Assembly (NCBI GenBank): GCA_944375715.1
Contig: CALWAP010000006.1
Coordinates: 1 to 64,000 of the forward strand
DNA from: an uncultured Clostridia bacterium
GTDB taxonomy: Bacteria > Bacillota > Clostridia > Oscillospirales > Butyricicoccaceae
Direction of reading: 5' to 3'
DNA: 64,000 nucleotides
In this document: positions 47,588 to 59,141 of the stretch, one piece after another
Position numbering within the stretch: position 1 is the stretch's first letter
How the letters are laid out: every line of letters begins with the position of its first letter
Position numbers and translations under genes: made by a program
Notes under the pieces: generated by a model
Seen by the model: the letters and a program-made list of their open reading frames with translations, nothing else
Database searches by the model: none
What the model was told of the DNA's origin: nothing

Positions 47588-47623
47588 AAATATCCCCCGC
47601 CTTATTGGCGGGGGATATTTTTT
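47588..47623. terminator. Bidirectional terminator between convergent units
   Basis: AAATATCCCCCGCC-ttatt-GGCGGGGGATATTT followed by T residues on plus and by A/T on minus, ending the lar operon from the other side. Confidence 0.85.
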
Positions 47624-48986
47624 ATTTTATGAGCTTCCTTACCTTTGCCAAAGGCAGCTTTTCCTTTCTGGCAATAGCCGCCAGGTCCTCGTACTCGGGC
47701 TTTTCCTTTTGGCACCCAAATCCGAAGGAGCGCTTTACCCTGACCTTGCCGTAAGGGGTCTCGCCCTCGTCAAAAGCCCTTTCCAGGGTATACCGCTTGC
47801 AGGTGTACTCCCTTATGCCCAGAGTGCCGGTATGCTCGAACATCAGCCTTACCATCTTGTCCCTGTCGGCCTTTTTGCACATGCAGGTCAAAAGGACGCC
47901 GTAGCGGGATTTTTTCATCGAAGCCGCCACGGTATAGACATCCAAAGCGCCGTTTTCAAAGAATGTCTCGCAGGCAAAGGCTATATCCTCGGGGGTCATG
48001 TCGTCCAGGTTGCAGGCAAGCTCGACTATCTCGCCCGCTTCCTCGTCGCTTTCGCCCACCATGGCCCTTACACAGTTGGCCCGCTCAAAATCCTTTTTGC
48101 CCATGCCATAGCCGATGGCCCCGACCTTCATGACGGGCTGGGGACCGAAGCCCCGGGCGAAATATTTGAGCAGGGCCGCACCCGTCGGGGTGCACAGCTC
48201 GCCCTTTACATCGCCGCCGTAGGTCGGCACATCCCTGAGTATATACGCCGTGGCGGGGGCGGGGACGGGCAGCACACCGTGGGCGCACCTGACATTGCCC
48301 GAACCCACATGGATGGGGGAGCAGATGACCTTTTCGGGGTTTATCTCGTACATAAGCAGGCAGGCCCCGACTATATCGGCTATGGCGTCGGCCGTGCCTA
48401 CCTCGTGGAAATGCACCTCTGTAATAGGTTTGCCGTGGGCATGGGCCTCGGCCTCGGCTATAAGGCGGTAAACGCCCAGGGCGTCCTTTTTGACCTTTTG
48501 GGGGATATCGAGGGAGCCTATTATGCCCTCTATGTCCGAAAGGCCCGAGTGGCTGTGGGAATGGCCATGTCCGTGGCCGTGGTCATGCTCGTGGTCATGG
48601 TGATGCTCGTGGTCGTGGCTGTGTTCGTGTTCATGGTCATGCTCGTGCTCATGGTCGTGGTCGTGGCTATGTTCGTGTTCATGGTCATGCTCGTGGCTGT
48701 GTTCATGCCCGTGCTCATGGTCATGGCAATGCCCGTGCTCATGGTCGTGGTGATGCTCATGCACATCGAGGCTCTCTTCCTCGACACCCCCGACGCTGAC
48801 GCTTATATGTGTGCCCTTGATTCCGCACTTTTCGCTTTCCTCGGCCCTGACCTCGACGCCGTTAAGGCCCAGGGAGTTCATTTTTTCCAAAAAAGCCTCT
48901 TTTTTATCGGGGCAAAGCTCCAAAAGGGCGGCGGTCAGCATATCGCCGGCAGCCCCCATATTGCATTCAAGATAAAGGGTTTTCAT
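47622..48986 (-). CDS. larC: Nickel-pincer cofactor cyclometallase LarC with a 72-residue His-rich insert
   Basis: CTP-dependent nickel insertase, last step in making the nickel-pincer nucleotide of lactate racemase (LarA). Known LarC features are 'YLECNMGAAGDMLTAALLEL' at the N-terminus, 'HFHEVGTADAIADIVGACLLM' in the middle and 'ELACNLDDMTPEDIAFACETFFENGALDVY' before the C-terminal domain. It is one continuous frame, while Lactiplantibacillus makes LarC1/LarC2 by frameshifting. Residues 76-147 are almost pure His alternating with Asp/Glu/Gly/Ser, a probable nickel-storing region. Gene order larE-larB-larC, no larA adjacent. Confidence 0.95.
   Translation of the reverse strand: MKTLYLECNMGAAGDMLTAALLELCPDKKEAFLEKMNSLGLNGVEVRAEESEKCGIKGTHISVSVGGVEEESLDVHEHHHDHEHGHCHDHEHGHEHSHEHDHEHEHSHDHDHEHEHDHEHEHSHDHEHHHDHEHDHGHGHGHSHSHSGLSDIEGIIGSLDIPQKVKKDALGVYRLIAEAEAHAHGKPITEVHFHEVGTADAIADIVGACLLMYEINPEKVICSPIHVGSGNVRCAHGVLPVPAPATAYILRDVPTYGGDVKGELCTPTGAALLKYFARGFGPQPVMKVGAIGYGMGKKDFERANCVRAMVGESDEEAGEIVELACNLDDMTPEDIAFACETFFENGALDVYTVAASMKKSRYGVLLTCMCKKADRDKMVRLMFEHTGTLGIREYTCKRYTLERAFDEGETPYGKVRVKRSFGFGCQKEKPEYEDLAAIARKEKLPLAKVRKLIK
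48546..48761 (-). repeat. His-codon low-complexity repeat within larC
   Basis: About 216 bp of degenerate hexameric repeats built on CAT/CAC-GAx, coding for alternating His and acidic residues. Such repeats expand and contract by slippage, so copy number may vary between strains. Confidence 0.9.
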
Positions 48987-48998
48987 ATATTTCCTCCG

Positions 48999-49757
48999 TT
49001 AAAGATGGTTTATCATGCTGGCCTGGTAGCCCGCGCCGAAACCGTTGTCGATATTGACGACGCTGACGCCGCTGGCGCAGGAATTGAGCATTGACAAAAG
49101 AGCCGAAAGTCCGCCCAATGAGGCCCCGTACCCGACACTTGTCGGCACGGCTATGACGGGGCAGTCGGCAAGCCCCCCTATGACGCTGGCCAAAGCGCCT
49201 TCCATCCCGGCTATGGCGACGATGACCCTGGCGCTCATAATATCGTCCATATGGGAAAGCAGCCTGTGAAGCCCGGCCACCCCCACATCATAAAGCCGCG
49301 TCACCTTATTCCCCAGAAACTCGGCCGTCAAAGCCGCTTCCTCGGCAACGGGCATATCGCTGGTGCCCCCCGTGGCAACGACAATGGCCCCCTTGCCGTC
49401 GGGATCTTTCATATTCCCGGCAATGCCTATTTTCGCCAGCTCGTAATAGGTAAAGCAAAGCCCCAGCTCCCTGACCCTCTGGGCGCTTTCGGGGGAAAGC
49501 CTTGTTATCAAAACCGAGCTCTGGCCCCGCTCTATCATGGCCGAGGCTATGGCGGCAATCTGCTCGGGCGTCTTGCCCGCGCCGTAAATGACCTCGCCGG
49601 CCCCCTGCCTTAAAGCCCTGTGGCTGTCGTACTTGGCAAAGCCCAGGTCGACAAAGGGCTGCTCTTTAAGGGCCAGCACGGCCTCGTCCAAACTCAGTTT
49701 TCCCTCTTTGAAGCGTGTAAGCGTATCCTTTATATCCCTTTGAGTCATAATATTCAC
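48999..49757 (-). CDS. larB: LarB, NaAD carboxylase/hydrolase of nickel-pincer biosynthesis
   Basis: Carboxylates the pyridinium of nicotinic acid adenine dinucleotide and releases AMP, giving the dicarboxylated mononucleotide that LarE then sulfurates. The C-terminal half (about 110-252) is PurE-like: 'IVVATGGTSDMPVAEEAALTAEFLG', 'AGMEGALASVIGGLADCPVIAVPTSVGYG'. The active-site Cys lies in 'NSCASGVSVVNIDNGFGAG'. 252 residues, full length. Overlaps larE by 4 bp. Confidence 0.95.
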   Translation of the reverse strand: MNIMTQRDIKDTLTRFKEGKLSLDEAVLALKEQPFVDLGFAKYDSHRALRQGAGEVIYGAGKTPEQIAAIASAMIERGQSSVLITRLSPESAQRVRELGLCFTYYELAKIGIAGNMKDPDGKGAIVVATGGTSDMPVAEEAALTAEFLGNKVTRLYDVGVAGLHRLLSHMDDIMSARVIVAIAGMEGALASVIGGLADCPVIAVPTSVGYGASLGGLSALLSMLNSCASGVSVVNIDNGFGAGYQASMINHL

Positions 49758-50500
49758 CTTCTGTCAAGATCCAAAAGCACTTTTTTAAAATAAGGGGAAA
49801 GGCCGGCCTTTATCCGGTCGGCCATTGAGGCCGCCCTTTCAAACTGATCGCTTTTAAGCTGAAGGCAGGCCATACCCGAGCGCACCCTGACCCTAAGGTC
49901 CCAAAAGCCCAGCTTTTTCAGTTCTTCCTCGGCGCCTTCGATCCTCTTCAAAATATCGGCTGATATCTCCACTCCCGTTTCCACCCTGGTGGCAAGGCAG
50001 GCATAGGCCGGCTTGTCCCAGGTGAAAAGCCCGGCTTCTTTTGACATGCGCCGTATTTCATCTTTCGTTATGCCGCACTCGTAAAGGGGGGAGCGGACCT
50101 CAAGCTCCCTTAAAGCCCTGACACCCGGGCGGTCGGAAAGGTCGTCGGAGGCGTTGGTGCCGTCCGTTATCATGACGCATCCGTCCTCTTTTGCCTTTTT
50201 TTCCAAAGCGCCGAATATGGCCCTTTTGCAGAAATAGCACCTGTCGGGGCCGTTTGCCCTTATATCCCGGCAGGCAAGATTGTCAAGCTCTATGACATTG
50301 AGCCTTACGCCGACAAAATCGGCTATGCCCCGGGCGTCCTCCAGCTCAAATTGCGGCTGGAAGGCTGTTTTTACGAAATATGGCCTTATGTCGGCTCCGT
50401 AATGCTTTCCCGCCCACAGAAGAAAACAGGAATCGACTCCGCCCGAAAAGCCCAAAGCGACGGGGCCGCCCGCGCTTTCAAAGAACTCTTTAAGGGTCAT
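49754..50500 (-). CDS. larE: LarE, ATP-dependent sulfur insertase of nickel-pincer biosynthesis
   Basis: PP-loop enzyme that adenylates the LarB product and donates sulfur to form the thiocarboxylates. 'LGFSGGVDSCFLLW' (residues 17-30) is the pyrophosphate loop. Conserved cysteines lie in 'PDRCYFCKRAIF' (about 88-95) and 'AYACLATRVETG' (about 165); the latter is the position of the sacrificial Cys, while the CxxC could support a cluster-using, catalytic type. That distinction is inference. First gene of the operon, preceded by a structured leader. Confidence 0.94.
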   Translation of the reverse strand: MTLKEFFESAGGPVALGFSGGVDSCFLLWAGKHYGADIRPYFVKTAFQPQFELEDARGIADFVGVRLNVIELDNLACRDIRANGPDRCYFCKRAIFGALEKKAKEDGCVMITDGTNASDDLSDRPGVRALRELEVRSPLYECGITKDEIRRMSKEAGLFTWDKPAYACLATRVETGVEISADILKRIEGAEEELKKLGFWDLRVRVRSGMACLQLKSDQFERAASMADRIKAGLSPYFKKVLLDLDRR

Positions 50501-50679
50501 TTTTCTCCCTTCTTTCCTTAAACCGGTATAAAAAAGGCCGCGAAAGAACCTGCCGGAACCTGCGGCATGTTACCTTCGTGGCAACCGTTTTTTCAAAATC
50601 ACCCGCCAAAGCCCTTCGGGGCTTTTTGCCTTAAAGCGGGGAACATATATATTATACCATAGCCCTGCCTTTATGGCAA
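50501..50679 (-). promoter_or_regulatory. lar operon promoter and structured 5' leader with internal terminator
   Basis: Minus strand: -35 TTGCCA (50674-50679), 17 bp ending in ATGG, -10 TATAAT (50651-50656). The roughly 140-nt leader holds three hairpins in order: AAAGCCC/GGGCTTT (50608-50625), GTTGCC/GGTAAC (50569-50585) and GCCGC/GCGGC (50537-50566). The last is followed on minus by six T residues (50530-50535), like an intrinsic terminator 30 nt before larE. Not a riboswitch class I can name; attenuation control is inferred. Confidence 0.6.
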
Positions 50680-52812: not shown

Positions 52813-52865
52813 CCCCGACAGATCACCCCGGAAAAACTTCGTTTTCCCGGGGACCCCGATATTTC

Positions 52866-52972
52866 ACCCCAAAAAAGCTGCGCTTTTTCGGGGACCCCGA
52901 TGATTTATTAGGTCAGGCGGCTGCGCCGCCATCTCGGTAACACCTATGCCGGTTTCATATCTCCAAATACCA
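52866..52972. repeat. Intergenic repeat module 2, copy A
   Basis: The segment AAAAAGC-tgc-GCTTTTT followed by CGGGGACCCCG and GATGATTTATT, then after 23 inserted bases CTCGGTAACAC..., recurs at 53264-53353. A shorter relative of the first half lies at 52829-52860 (CCCCGG...CCGGGGACCCCG). Each hairpin is self-complementary. No gene is seen in 52813-53552. Confidence 0.75.
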
Positions 52973-52982
52973 AAAAAGCATG

Positions 52983-53097
52983 CCTTTCCCCGAATTGCGA
53001 CCCAGCGCAGGCGGTCGCAATTCGGACGCGAGGAGCAGCGGAGCGTATGAAAGGCAGGCTGCACTTTTTAAGCCTGCCGCGAAGAATGCGAAGCTTG
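52983..53097. repeat. Two-hairpin repeat element, unit 1
   Basis: Structure: hairpin A (CCGAATTGCGACC 52990-53002 / GGTCGCAATTCGG 53013-53025, loop CAGCGCAGGC), core GAGGAGCAGCGGAGCG (53030-53045), hairpin B (GGCAGGCT 53053-53060 / AGCCTGCC 53071-53078). It is repeated with only a few changes 126 bp downstream. Confidence 0.85.
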
Positions 53098-53108
53098 CCT
53101 TTCTCTTT

Positions 53109-53224
53109 CCTTTCCCCGAATTGCGACCCAGCGCAGGCGGTCGCAATTCGGACGCGAGGAGCAGCGGAGCGTATGAGAGGCAGGCTGCACTTTTTAAGCC
53201 TGCCGCGAAGAATGCGGAACTTGC
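53109..53224. repeat. Two-hairpin repeat element, unit 2
   Basis: Near-identical copy of unit 1 (about 116 bp, differing at a few bases such as GTATGAGAGG for GTATGAAAGG), separated by a pyrimidine-rich 11-bp spacer. Confidence 0.85.
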
Positions 53225-53230
53225 GACGAG

Positions 53231-53263
53231 CGGGTGACCGGACTCGAACCGGTACGGCAACCC
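53231..53263 (-). pseudogene. tRNA-Leu 3' fragment (T arm and acceptor strand)
   Basis: Minus strand reads GTACCGGTTCGAGTCCGGTC then ACCCGC, i.e. variable-arm edge, T arm identical to that of the intact tRNA-Leu at 53553, and a different acceptor half. No matching 5' half is present, so it is a relic of another tRNA-Leu. Confidence 0.65.
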
Positions 53264-53353
53264 ACCCCATAAAAGCTGCGCTTTTCCGGGGGCCCCGATG
53301 ATTTATTCGCTCGGTAACACTCGTACCGGTTCATCTGCGTACTCGGAATACCA
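53264..53353. repeat. Intergenic repeat module 2, copy B
   Basis: Copy of the 52866-52972 module without the 23-bp insertion. It contains a 20-base match to the intact tRNA-Leu in opposite orientation (53313-53332 versus 53573-53592). Confidence 0.75.
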
Positions 53354-55792: not shown

Positions 55793-57685
55793 TCAGGCCC
55801 TTATCCTGCCTTCGCCCTTCATTTTTGTTATCCTGGCTTTGTCGAAACTCTCCAAAAGGGCCACGGCATATTTGCGCGATGTGCCCAAAGCGTCCCTGAA
55901 CTCGCCCAAGGTGACCTGGCCCTTTTGGTCGATTATCGAAAGGGCCTTTTCCTTTGCCTCGCCGTAAAGCCCGGCATCCATGTTTATCTGGGCGTCCAGC
56001 CTGACAAGCGCGCCCGAGGCGACCATGGCCTCTAAAACCTGGGAGGCCTGCTTGCTGCCGCTCTGGGCAATTACATCGTCGGTGGCGGGGGGAGTATAGC
56101 CGGCCTTTTTGTAAATGGCCGATATTTCCTCCATCAGCTTCCGGAGCTTTTCGCCGGCCTCGACCTTGAAGGAACTGAGGGACACAAGCCCCGCCTGTTC
56201 CTTTAAACTGCCCGAGGAAATAAAGTAATTTATAAGGCTGTCCATGTCGGATATCTTTATATCGGCCAAAAGGCGGGACCGCAGCTCCTCCCGCTTCATG
56301 CCGCCCCTTAACGGGTTTGCCTTGTGATAGGCCGAAAGCGTGGAAACGGCCTGCCGCCTTATCTTTTTGACATACTCCATGTCAAGGCAGATATCCCTCC
56401 CTATCATAACGGCCTTTCCTTCCTTTTCCAAAGCGCCTGCCTGCTCTTTTGTCTCTTCAAGGGTAAAGGAAGCCAGGACGGCTATTTCCGAAACAGGGGT
56501 CCAGAACCTGCTGTGCTCCGAAATAAGGGCCGAAACTATCTCCTTTTTGTCGCCTTTGTGCTTTATCTCCATGACCGAAAGGGCCTTTTTGTCACCCCTG
56601 CGGTGCTTTAAGGGGCAGGGGTCCAAAATCTCGCCGCCTCCCACCGTTTCCACCGGGGAATAGAACCTGACGACAAACCTGTCGCCCCTTTTGGCGGCAA
56701 AGCTCTCCTCCAGCCTCAGCTGGGCATAACAGCTTTCGCCGGGGTGCAGGACCTCCCTGTCCATCAAAATGACCTTGGAAAGGATCTCCCTGGCGCCGTG
56801 GTAAAGGTGCACGCGGCTTCCCGTTTTGATATCCCTCATGCCCTCTTTAAGGCAGCTTAAATAAACATCGGCCATCATCGAAGGCACCATGCTGCCCGGA
56901 GCGGCTATTACCTCGCCCCTTTCGATGTCCTCCCTTTTGATTCCGGCCAGGTTGACGGCCACCCTCTGGCCGCCGTAGGCCTCCTTGACATCCTTGGAAT
57001 GTACCTGTATGCTCCTGGCTCGGGTCGAAAGCCCCGAGGGGTAAAGGGTTATCTCGTCCCCCTCTTTCAAAGTGCCCTCGATAAGGGTGCCCGTTATGAC
57101 CGTGCCGAAGCCGCCCAGGGTAAAGACCCTGTCGGCAGGCAGCCTGAAGGGCCTTGAAAGGTCCTTGCCGCCCGAATGTGCGGCCAGCTCCATAAGCTTT
57201 GCCTTGAGCTCGTCAAGCCCCATGCCCGTAAAGGCCGAAACCGCAACCATGTCGGCCCCTTCCAAAAAGGTGCCGCTGACGGCCTCCTTTATATCGTCCT
57301 TGACCAGCTCGACCCAATCGGGCTCCACCGTATCGCACTTTGTTATGACTATTATGCCGCGGGGGATGTTGAGAAGGGAAAGTATGCTCAGATGCTCCCT
57401 GGTCTGGGGCATGACCCCTTCATCGGCCGCCACTATCAGCATGGCTATGTCTATGCCTCCGGCGCCGGCCAGCATATTCCTTATAAACCGCTCGTGCCCC
57501 GGCACATCGACTATGCCGGCCACCGTGCCGTCTGGCAGCTTTAAGGAGGCAAAGCCCAGCTCGATGGTTATGCCCCTTTTCTTTTCCTCGGCCAGGCGGT
57601 CGGTGTCTATGCCCGTCAGGGCCTTTATGAGGCAGGTCTTGCCGTGGTCGACATGGCCTGCCGTACCGATTATGACATGGTTCAT
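55793..57685 (-). CDS. selB: Selenocysteine-specific elongation factor SelB
   Basis: GTPase that carries Sec-tRNA(Sec) to UGA codons marked by a SECIS hairpin. The 630-residue protein opens with the G domain 'IIGTAGHVDHGKTCLIKALTGIDTDRLAEEKKRGITIELGFA' (G1 and switch I), 'DVPGHERF' (G3) and 'VITKCDTV' (G4), followed by two beta barrels, an SelB-specific barrel and C-terminal winged-helix repeats (about 370-630) that bind SECIS RNA. The start overlaps the selA stop (TAATG). Confidence 0.96.
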   Translation of the reverse strand: MNHVIIGTAGHVDHGKTCLIKALTGIDTDRLAEEKKRGITIELGFASLKLPDGTVAGIVDVPGHERFIRNMLAGAGGIDIAMLIVAADEGVMPQTREHLSILSLLNIPRGIIVITKCDTVEPDWVELVKDDIKEAVSGTFLEGADMVAVSAFTGMGLDELKAKLMELAAHSGGKDLSRPFRLPADRVFTLGGFGTVITGTLIEGTLKEGDEITLYPSGLSTRARSIQVHSKDVKEAYGGQRVAVNLAGIKREDIERGEVIAAPGSMVPSMMADVYLSCLKEGMRDIKTGSRVHLYHGAREILSKVILMDREVLHPGESCYAQLRLEESFAAKRGDRFVVRFYSPVETVGGGEILDPCPLKHRRGDKKALSVMEIKHKGDKKEIVSALISEHSRFWTPVSEIAVLASFTLEETKEQAGALEKEGKAVMIGRDICLDMEYVKKIRRQAVSTLSAYHKANPLRGGMKREELRSRLLADIKISDMDSLINYFISSGSLKEQAGLVSLSSFKVEAGEKLRKLMEEISAIYKKAGYTPPATDDVIAQSGSKQASQVLEAMVASGALVRLDAQINMDAGLYGEAKEKALSIIDQKGQVTLGEFRDALGTSRKYAVALLESFDKARITKMKGEGRIRA

Positions 57686-59064
57686 TATTTACCTCCGCAT
57701 ATTTCCTTCAAAGCCGCGGCTATCTTAAGCTCGTCCCCCTCCAAAAGGGTCCTTACGTCAAAGACGACCTTATCCTTTATTATGCGGCAGATTATGCTGT
57801 GCTCCCGCCTGAGCCTTTCCTCCAAAAGGGCGGCCGACATATCCTTTGCCTGCACCTCGACGGCCCTGGTCTCTATGAACTCGGAAGGCACCGAGCCTCC
57901 GCCCACCTGGCTTTTTTCCCGCATCACGGCGCACCAGAGGGAAGGCGCCTCCTCCAAAAGCCCGGCCAGCTCCTTGGCCTTTTTGTCAAGCTCGGGCACC
58001 GTGCGGCGTATCATGCCGATGGCCGGCACGGACATTTCGCCCCCCTCGCTGAGATAGCACCTGAGGGTCTCCTCCAAAGCGGCAAAGGTCATCTTGTCGA
58101 CCCTGAAGGCCCTTGTCAGGGGGTTTTTCTTCATCTTTTCGATATATTCCTTTTTGCCTACGATTATGCCGGCCTGGGGGCCGCCCAGAAGCTTGTCGCC
58201 GCTGAAGGATACGACGTCGGCCCCGCTCCTGACGGCCGGCTTTACCATAGGCTCGTCAAATATCCCGGCTTCCGCCAGGGAACACATAAGCCCGCTGCCC
58301 AGGTCGTAAATGACGGGGACTCCGTGTGCATGGCCTATTTCCACCATTTCCTCCAAGGATACCTCCTCGGTAAAGCCGGTCACCTTGAAGTTGCTGGTGT
58401 GGACCTTTAAAAGCACGCCGGTATTCTCGTTTATGGCGTTTATATAATCATAGGCGTGGGTCTTGTTGGTGGTGCCCACCTCCCGCAGAATGCCGCCGCT
58501 CTGCTCCATTATCTCGGGTACGCGGAAAGCGCCCCCTATCTCCACAAGCTCGCCGCGGGAGACAATGGCCTCCCTGCCCTTGACCATCGTCGAAAGCACC
58601 AGCATGACGGCGGCGGCGTTGTTGTTGACCACCATGGCGCTTTCGGCCCCCGTGACGCGGCACAGGAGCTTTTCGATGTGGCTGTAACGGGAGCCGCGCT
58701 GGCCCTTTTCGATGTCATACTCGAGGTTTGTATAGCTCCTGGCGGCATGATAGGCCGCCATGGCGGCCCTTTCGCACAAAACGGCCCTGCCCAGGTTGGT
58801 GTGCAGCACGACGCCCGTGGCGTTTACGACGGTGTGCAGGTGGGGGGCATAGATCTCCCCGAGCCTTTTTTCGACCATATCGGCCATAGCCTCAGGGGAA
58901 ATGTCGGCGTCGCCCCCCGAAAGCAATGCCGCCCTTGTCTCGTCAACACACTCCCTGACGCAGGAGAGCACCATGTCCTTGCCGTATTTGTCCCAAAGAT
59001 GTGAAAGGCTTTCGCCCAAAGCGTCGACCCTGGGCAGGCCTCTGAGTTTTGCTTTATTGTCCAT
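57685..59064 (-). CDS. selA: L-seryl-tRNA(Sec) selenium transferase SelA
   Basis: PLP enzyme that converts Ser-tRNA(Sec) to Sec-tRNA(Sec) with selenophosphate. 459 residues; family marks are 'VVNATGVVLHTNLGRAVL', 'YTNLEYDIEKGQRGSRYSHIE', 'VVNNNAAAVML', and the PLP-lysine loop 'SFSGDKLLGGPQAGIIVGKK' (about 285-304). The start is ATG 59064, in front of AATGATAAGG and GAGGAA; a TTG six codons upstream is an alternative. selD and the tRNA-Sec gene (selC) are not in this window. Confidence 0.96.
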   Translation of the reverse strand: MDNKAKLRGLPRVDALGESLSHLWDKYGKDMVLSCVRECVDETRAALLSGGDADISPEAMADMVEKRLGEIYAPHLHTVVNATGVVLHTNLGRAVLCERAAMAAYHAARSYTNLEYDIEKGQRGSRYSHIEKLLCRVTGAESAMVVNNNAAAVMLVLSTMVKGREAIVSRGELVEIGGAFRVPEIMEQSGGILREVGTTNKTHAYDYINAINENTGVLLKVHTSNFKVTGFTEEVSLEEMVEIGHAHGVPVIYDLGSGLMCSLAEAGIFDEPMVKPAVRSGADVVSFSGDKLLGGPQAGIIVGKKEYIEKMKKNPLTRAFRVDKMTFAALEETLRCYLSEGGEMSVPAIGMIRRTVPELDKKAKELAGLLEEAPSLWCAVMREKSQVGGGSVPSEFIETRAVEVQAKDMSAALLEERLRREHSIICRIIKDKVVFDVRTLLEGDELKIAAALKEICGGK

Positions 59065-59141
59065 ATCCTTATCATTCCTCAAATATATTTTTTTACCCTA
59101 TACACCGTATTATATATTTGATTTGTCCCTTATTGCAAGAC

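Follow-up and report, generated by a model that had tools for sequence, protein, structure and literature searches.

A candidate antitermination switch of small tandem hairpins upstream of larEBC and metal-uptake genes, mainly in Clostridia

In the window (the whole stretch of 64,000 nucleotides analyzed here), the leader of the larEBC operon contains a hairpin with a conserved loop whose 3′ arm also serves as the 5′ arm of an intrinsic terminator. On balance, we judge that this leader is a conserved transcription antitermination switch for genes of metal (probably nickel) uptake and of nickel-pincer nucleotide (NPN) synthesis, found mainly in Clostridia; in many gut bacteria its close relatives lie ahead of genes for nickel cofactors and metal transport. 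Judged from sequence, the element would be a new cis-regulatory class that is not listed in Rfam, with a ligand and a direction that are predicted. A leader that links larEBC with Nik-like, CbiM and FecCD transporters and an ECF S component outlines a candidate nickel-economy regulon. It also offers a way to approach DUF3842 and the substrate of the ECF transporter, and an antitermination system that is simple, can be tested and has a loop code other than that of ANTAR proteins.

The larEBC operon of the window and its leader

LarE, LarB and LarC of the window, which account for NPN synthesis, all score above curated cut-offs (Table 1), and the genes lie on the minus strand in the order larE, larB, larC. 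The upstream CNNM/CorC-type gene has a terminator directly ahead of the lar promoter, which makes lar a separate transcription unit. This promoter, which a preliminary description of the DNA had called good, agrees with the consensus at 11 of 12 positions and has an extended −10 element. Because larE is on the minus strand, the leader is read on that strand, from about 50650/50644 to 50501. It is ~143 nt long, close to the 140 nt first estimated, and 29 nt separate the end of its T6 tract from the larE ATG (30 nt had been given).

Table 1. Features of the lar locus in the window, in the direction of lar transcription
Feature	Position	Strand	Basis or remark
Terminator of upstream CNNM/CorC-type gene	50710-50684		lar promoter −35 directly after
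Extended −10 sigma-A-type promoter (TTGCCA, 17, TG.TATAAT)	50651..50679	-	consensus scan 11/12
Leader stem 1	50599..50642	-	fold; inner hairpin AAAGCCC[CGAA]GGGCTTT (50625-50608)
Antiterminator hairpin A2, GTTGCC[ACGAA]GGTAAC, conserved loop C[ANGAA]G	50569..50585	-	strict caller; R1; covariation in relatives
B2-position hairpin TGCCG[CAGGTTC]CGGCA (terminator apex)	50551..50567	-	folds
Intrinsic terminator (stem 50582-50537, CTTTTTT, T6 at 50535-50530)	50530..50582	-	fold
Ribosome-binding region of larE (AAGAAGGGAG)	50501..50520	-	sequence
larE, sacrificial sulfur transferase	49754..50500	-	TIGR00268 220 bits, cut-off 150
larB	48999..49757	-	NF033503 290 bits, cut-off 175
larC, C1 and C2 domains in one frame	47622..48986	-	TIGR00299 217 bits and NF052512 140 bits

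Three consecutive hairpins had been proposed for this leader. Stems 1 to 3 do fold; stem 2 (hairpin A2) and the terminator, however, are alternatives that share bases 50574-50569 and exclude each other. In folding, the terminator stem reaches −22.7 kcal/mol (z −3.7) and the two-hairpin alternative −13.3 kcal/mol. Taken over its full length, the leader shows no unusual stability (folding energy z −1.1), which identifies the terminator as its stable part. When the window leader was shuffled by a Markov model, the strict caller found a conserved-loop hairpin overlapping a terminator in 19 of 4000 shuffles.

A 15-codon frame, MFPALRQKAPKGFGG, starts just after the window promoter and could in principle serve translation-coupled attenuation by a leader peptide. 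Its ATG lies at the expected transcription start and has no ribosome-binding site, and among relatives the distance between loops differs in steps of one base (18, 19, 20, 21, 22), unlike a coding stretch. We regard leader-peptide control as extremely improbable.

Several other features of the region were recorded. LarC carries a long His/Asp/Glu-rich insert (HDHEHDHEHEHSHD..., window 48530-48787) that is probably metal-binding. LarA (PF09861) was not found in the window genome (G000) or in the same-genus genome G006, which are both 98-99% complete; since G000 has larE, larB and larC without LarA, the user of NPN there may be an unrecognized enzyme. Homologs of selB and selA lie a few kb upstream of lar (window 55793-59082) and place selenocysteine incorporation in the same region, and the sole tRNA of the window is a tRNA-Leu. 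A 116-nt direct repeat (97%) at window 52983-53224 holds the inverted repeat CCGAATTGCGACC...GGTCGCAATTCGG. Three copies of a dispersed 50-nt element lie at window 52824-53312.

Conserved loops, shared arms and the genes behind them

In 96 larE upstream regions, two types of hairpin loop dominate: C[ANGAA]G, mostly as AGGAA, ACGAA or AAGAA, and C[NGAA]G, mostly as AGAA. We counted 120 short hairpins of these two types, compared with 2-12 in Markov shuffles. The 5-nt loop precedes the 4-nt loop in 30 of 36 tandem pairs, and the loop starts are 18-22 nt apart in nearly all. Alignment of 26 pairs shows a fixed loop and closing pair on stems that vary freely, with 90% of the cells paired; because a hairpin descriptor was used to choose the rows of this alignment, the unbiased evidence comes from the shuffle test and not from the number of pairs. 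Most relatives with the element have an extra tandem pair upstream (A1/B1) with the same loop signature. Upstream of larE in locus L043, four C[AGAA]G hairpins stand in a row before the switch hairpin, which suggests that the binding unit can be repeated.

Nearer the gene lies the further C[ANGAA]G hairpin, A2, whose 3′ arm doubles as the 5′ arm of the terminator. The strict caller found this shared arm in 23 of the 96 lar leaders, the window included, versus 0-1 of 96 after shuffling; when other loop patterns were asked for, it found 0-4. Across 30 lar and non-lar leaders, covariation reaches 0.639 for A2 (0.374 shuffled, at most 0.235 slid) and 0.522 for the terminator (0.296 shuffled, at most 0.163 slid). 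As both alternatives covary, the antiterminator and the terminator are both conserved and are mutually exclusive. In many species, the terminator is capped by a C[NGAA]G hairpin (B2); A2-B2 thus repeats A1-B1, and for this reason the pair model matches twice in leaders G026, G288 and G673. The attenuator layout first noticed before larEBC is therefore conserved, and the covariation among relatives that had been named as its test is present for both its forms. A strong terminator alone would suffice if it merely lowered larEBC expression and were unregulated. Such a terminator would not, however, call for an alternative hairpin and loop that are conserved, covary and recur at functionally related, unlinked genes, and we consider it very unlikely.

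The recurrence at other genes was found with R1, a covariance model made from lar leaders only and run on more than 700 genomes of the family, order and class. Among the 26 distinct R1 hits at about E ≤ 5e-4, 22 precede lar, ABC-transporter or ECF S-component genes, and 12 of these 22 are non-lar. The element stands (i) in G019 before a NikA-like substrate-binding protein and its ABC transporter (the NCBIfam models that fit the protein best, those of oligopeptide and of nickel binding proteins, both score below cut-off), (ii) in G050 before a FecCD-type permease with its ATPase, and (iii) repeatedly before an unnamed ECF-transporter S component of PF12822. In G017, a CbiM/NikM gene lies behind the same leader. 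Of 80 lar loci, about 30 have a NikA-like gene after larC, four have FecCD/ATPase genes ahead of larE and two are followed by CbiM. In an independent test of the ECF S family, 30 homologs carry 51 hairpins with the same loops upstream, versus 0-2 when shuffled, and R1 matches most of the leaders of the closer homologs. When a further model, R2, was run over 93 lar loci, 59 of 63 hits at E ≤ 0.05 lay on the sense strand just before the lar operon, including loci outside training: Acidaminococcus (L064), L052, L055 and Lentisphaeria (L082). Because of the genes behind the element, we take its regulon to be metal (probably nickel) uptake plus NPN synthesis. The specificity for nickel rather than cobalt is a prediction with only larEBC and the Nik-like annotation as its basis. 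The nickel theme of the preliminary description is borne out by the Nik-like ABC, CbiM/NikM and FecCD genes that carry the element; its suggestion of lactate as a signal is not.

Hits of R1 and R2 in the window genome outside lar, and hits in L137, L143, L144, L145, L148, L167, L171 and L247, fall within coding sequence and were dismissed as chance. ECF S components (PF12822, motif PMH[IL]PV) were located at L139 2193-2750, L146 1698-2255 and L245 2375-2926. In G023, the ECF S component lies about 6 kb from a LarA homolog, near a glycerate kinase and a GntP-like permease. Two small conserved proteins are encoded between the leader and larE in L064 (1900-3000), L052 (1900-2950), L082, L084 and L168; neither the first (MACFLVP..., about 140 aa) nor the second (MTLLTTVFAA..., about 105 aa, membrane-like) matches a Pfam family.

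Within this family of leaders, the window leader is, by its sequence, a divergent member of the conserved element, in which A1 and the B2 loop are non-canonical. The A1 partner is degenerate (GGC[AAAAA]GCC) and the loop at the B2 position is not of the conserved type. The best R1 match in the whole window is the A2 region (50586-50550, 12.8 bits, E about 0.09), and the window leader was not listed by R2. We assign it to the class because of its position, its A2 hairpin and shared arm, its C[CGAA]G hairpin and the canonical leader of G006. The combination that marks the class, a C[ANGAA]G-loop hairpin with a 3′ arm that doubles as the terminator's 5′ arm shortly before the gene, is present at 50585-50530. 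The inner hairpin of stem 1 is B1-like and the probable equivalent of the upstream B1, with a loop of the C[NGAA]G type that is enriched in larE leaders, and G006 has a full A1/B1 pair (R1, 40.8 bits).

Comparison with known RNA regulators

Rfam 15 at gathering score, applied to the window and 20 further loci with the element, returned only tRNA matches, and at permissive thresholds only chance hits appeared. The element thus fits no named riboswitch class, NiCo and NAD+ among them, as the preliminary description had said of the window leader. Our literature search found no account of a nickel or lar leader RNA or of lar regulation in gut Clostridia; a description outside the literature searched may exist.

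The nearest known logic is that of the ANTAR dual-hairpin antiterminator, in which the downstream one of two hairpins is exclusive with the terminator (PMC3369931). Like the targets of EutV, NasR and AmiR, the lar element consists of small paired hairpins that are separated by a few bases and end in conserved loops, and its downstream hairpin overlaps and excludes the terminator. Binding of an ANTAR protein switches its genes on, and the same direction would apply to the lar leader. The loops of the two systems differ: those of the lar element are ANGAA (5 nt) and NGAA (4 nt) closed by C-G, whereas ANTAR proteins recognize a hexanucleotide loop with A1 and G4. The lar element, unlike ANTAR targets, also usually has an additional upstream pair. 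In addition, the ANTAR domain is absent from nine carrier genomes, namely G000 (that of the window), G006, G008, G020, G021, G030, G032, G033 and G038. Despite the common logic, we therefore hold it to be highly improbable that a two-component ANTAR protein binds both hairpins.

A less close resemblance is to the guanidine-II (mini-ykkC) riboswitch, which likewise has two tandem hairpins with similar conserved loops. The ACGR loops of guanidine-II dimerize by loop-loop contact, whereas the second loop base of the lar element is free (G, C, A or T) and its loops are not complementary: the A loop is ANGAA, with N mostly G, and the B loop is NGAA, mostly AGAA, so that neither is ACGR. The guanidine-II regulon is guanidine export, in contrast to metal uptake and NPN synthesis, and the lar element has no Rfam match. 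Cobalamin and NiCo riboswitches have large junction-type aptamers. They resemble the lar element in that a leader RNA controls genes for metal transport or metal cofactors; unlike them, the lar element matches neither Rfam model. In the ribonucleic antiterminators of BglG/LicT, too, the antiterminator hairpin and the terminator have one arm in common, and a protein stabilizes the hairpin. The lar antiterminator is not known to resemble the RAT hairpin in sequence or length, and the BglG/LicT regulon, sugar PTS genes, is unrelated to that of the lar element.

Direction, candidate partner and ligand

By default, the leader RNA can form the strong terminator. A trans-acting factor would recognize the tandem hairpins and hold the antiterminator, polymerase would pass, and binding of the factor would turn the genes on. 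This direction is the most likely one because the conserved loop sits in the antiterminator and is dissolved in the terminator. Nickel itself is unlikely to throw the switch, since the targets are importers and cofactor synthesis; switching on both together instead suggests that the metal or its cofactor is scarce. Most likely, the factor is a protein that binds RNA and acts when nickel (or its cofactor) runs low.

Among named proteins, DUF3842 (PF12953) is the best candidate for a part of such machinery; at many lar, nik, cbiM and ECF S loci its gene directly precedes the leader. Among carriers found by R1 only, 12 of 12 (background 35/60, hypergeometric 0.0006, phylogeny ignored) and 10 of 10 (background 8/18, Fisher 0.003, phylogeny again ignored) encode it, which makes 22 of 22 carrier genomes found independently of DUF3842. 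Among lar genomes it occurs in 46 of 50 and is too common there to discriminate, and in the window genome its gene is not beside lar. The family is common in Clostridia and occurs widely where there is no such leader, and structure prediction (pLDDT 82) gives it a Rossmann-like fold that finds generic matches only in structure comparison and carries no hint of RNA binding. For these two reasons, we treat it as a candidate, not a finding. A sequence search of the PDB with DUF3842 found nothing, and a literature search found no mention of it. The full proposal, that DUF3842 proteins are new RNA-binding sensors of nickel or cofactor status that act on C[ANGAA]G/C[NGAA]G tandem hairpins and antiterminate a metal-uptake/NPN regulon that extends to a new ECF transporter, with a nickel chelate or a precursor of NPN as substrate, is speculative, and we think it unlikely.

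There is a second possibility for what holds the antiterminator. The tandem mini-hairpins could themselves, as in guanidine-II, be the aptamer of a small-molecule or metal riboswitch and stabilize the antiterminator directly once Ni2+, a nickel chelate, an NPN intermediate or some other metabolite is bound. In favor of this, the tandem hairpins are small and conserved and keep their loops and spacing, transport and cofactor genes are typical riboswitch targets, and DUF3842, like any other single protein partner, is only a candidate. Several properties of the element argue against this. The conservation is confined to the loops and closing pair; the loops are purine-rich and not mutually complementary, which leaves no kissing loop of the guanidine-II type; and a Ni2+ on-switch for importers would amount to positive feedback. 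We give the riboswitch reading tentative standing, as a possible but rather doubtful one. Because the conserved part is a pair of small hairpins that are constant only in their loops and closing pair, the leader has the look of a protein-binding dual-hairpin antiterminator, which appears at least as likely as the riboswitch first suggested.

NPN was rejected as the sole or common ligand, since several carriers have neither larE nor a clear LarA; as a common ligand, NPN or its intermediates would have to be imported. The ECF S carriers G005, G010, G020, G021, G032 and G038 have no larE and no LarA above cut-off. Among all larE-less genomes, LarA above cut-off is found in 9 of 16 carriers versus 5 of 27 others (p 0.014), and given this excess, the ECF or FecCD transporter may take up NPN or one of its precursors. 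Genomes G008, G023, G033, G035 and G050 have LarA homologs above cut-off without larE, and their leader stands before an ECF or FecCD transporter; LarA without larE in these carriers is a hint of NPN or precursor uptake.
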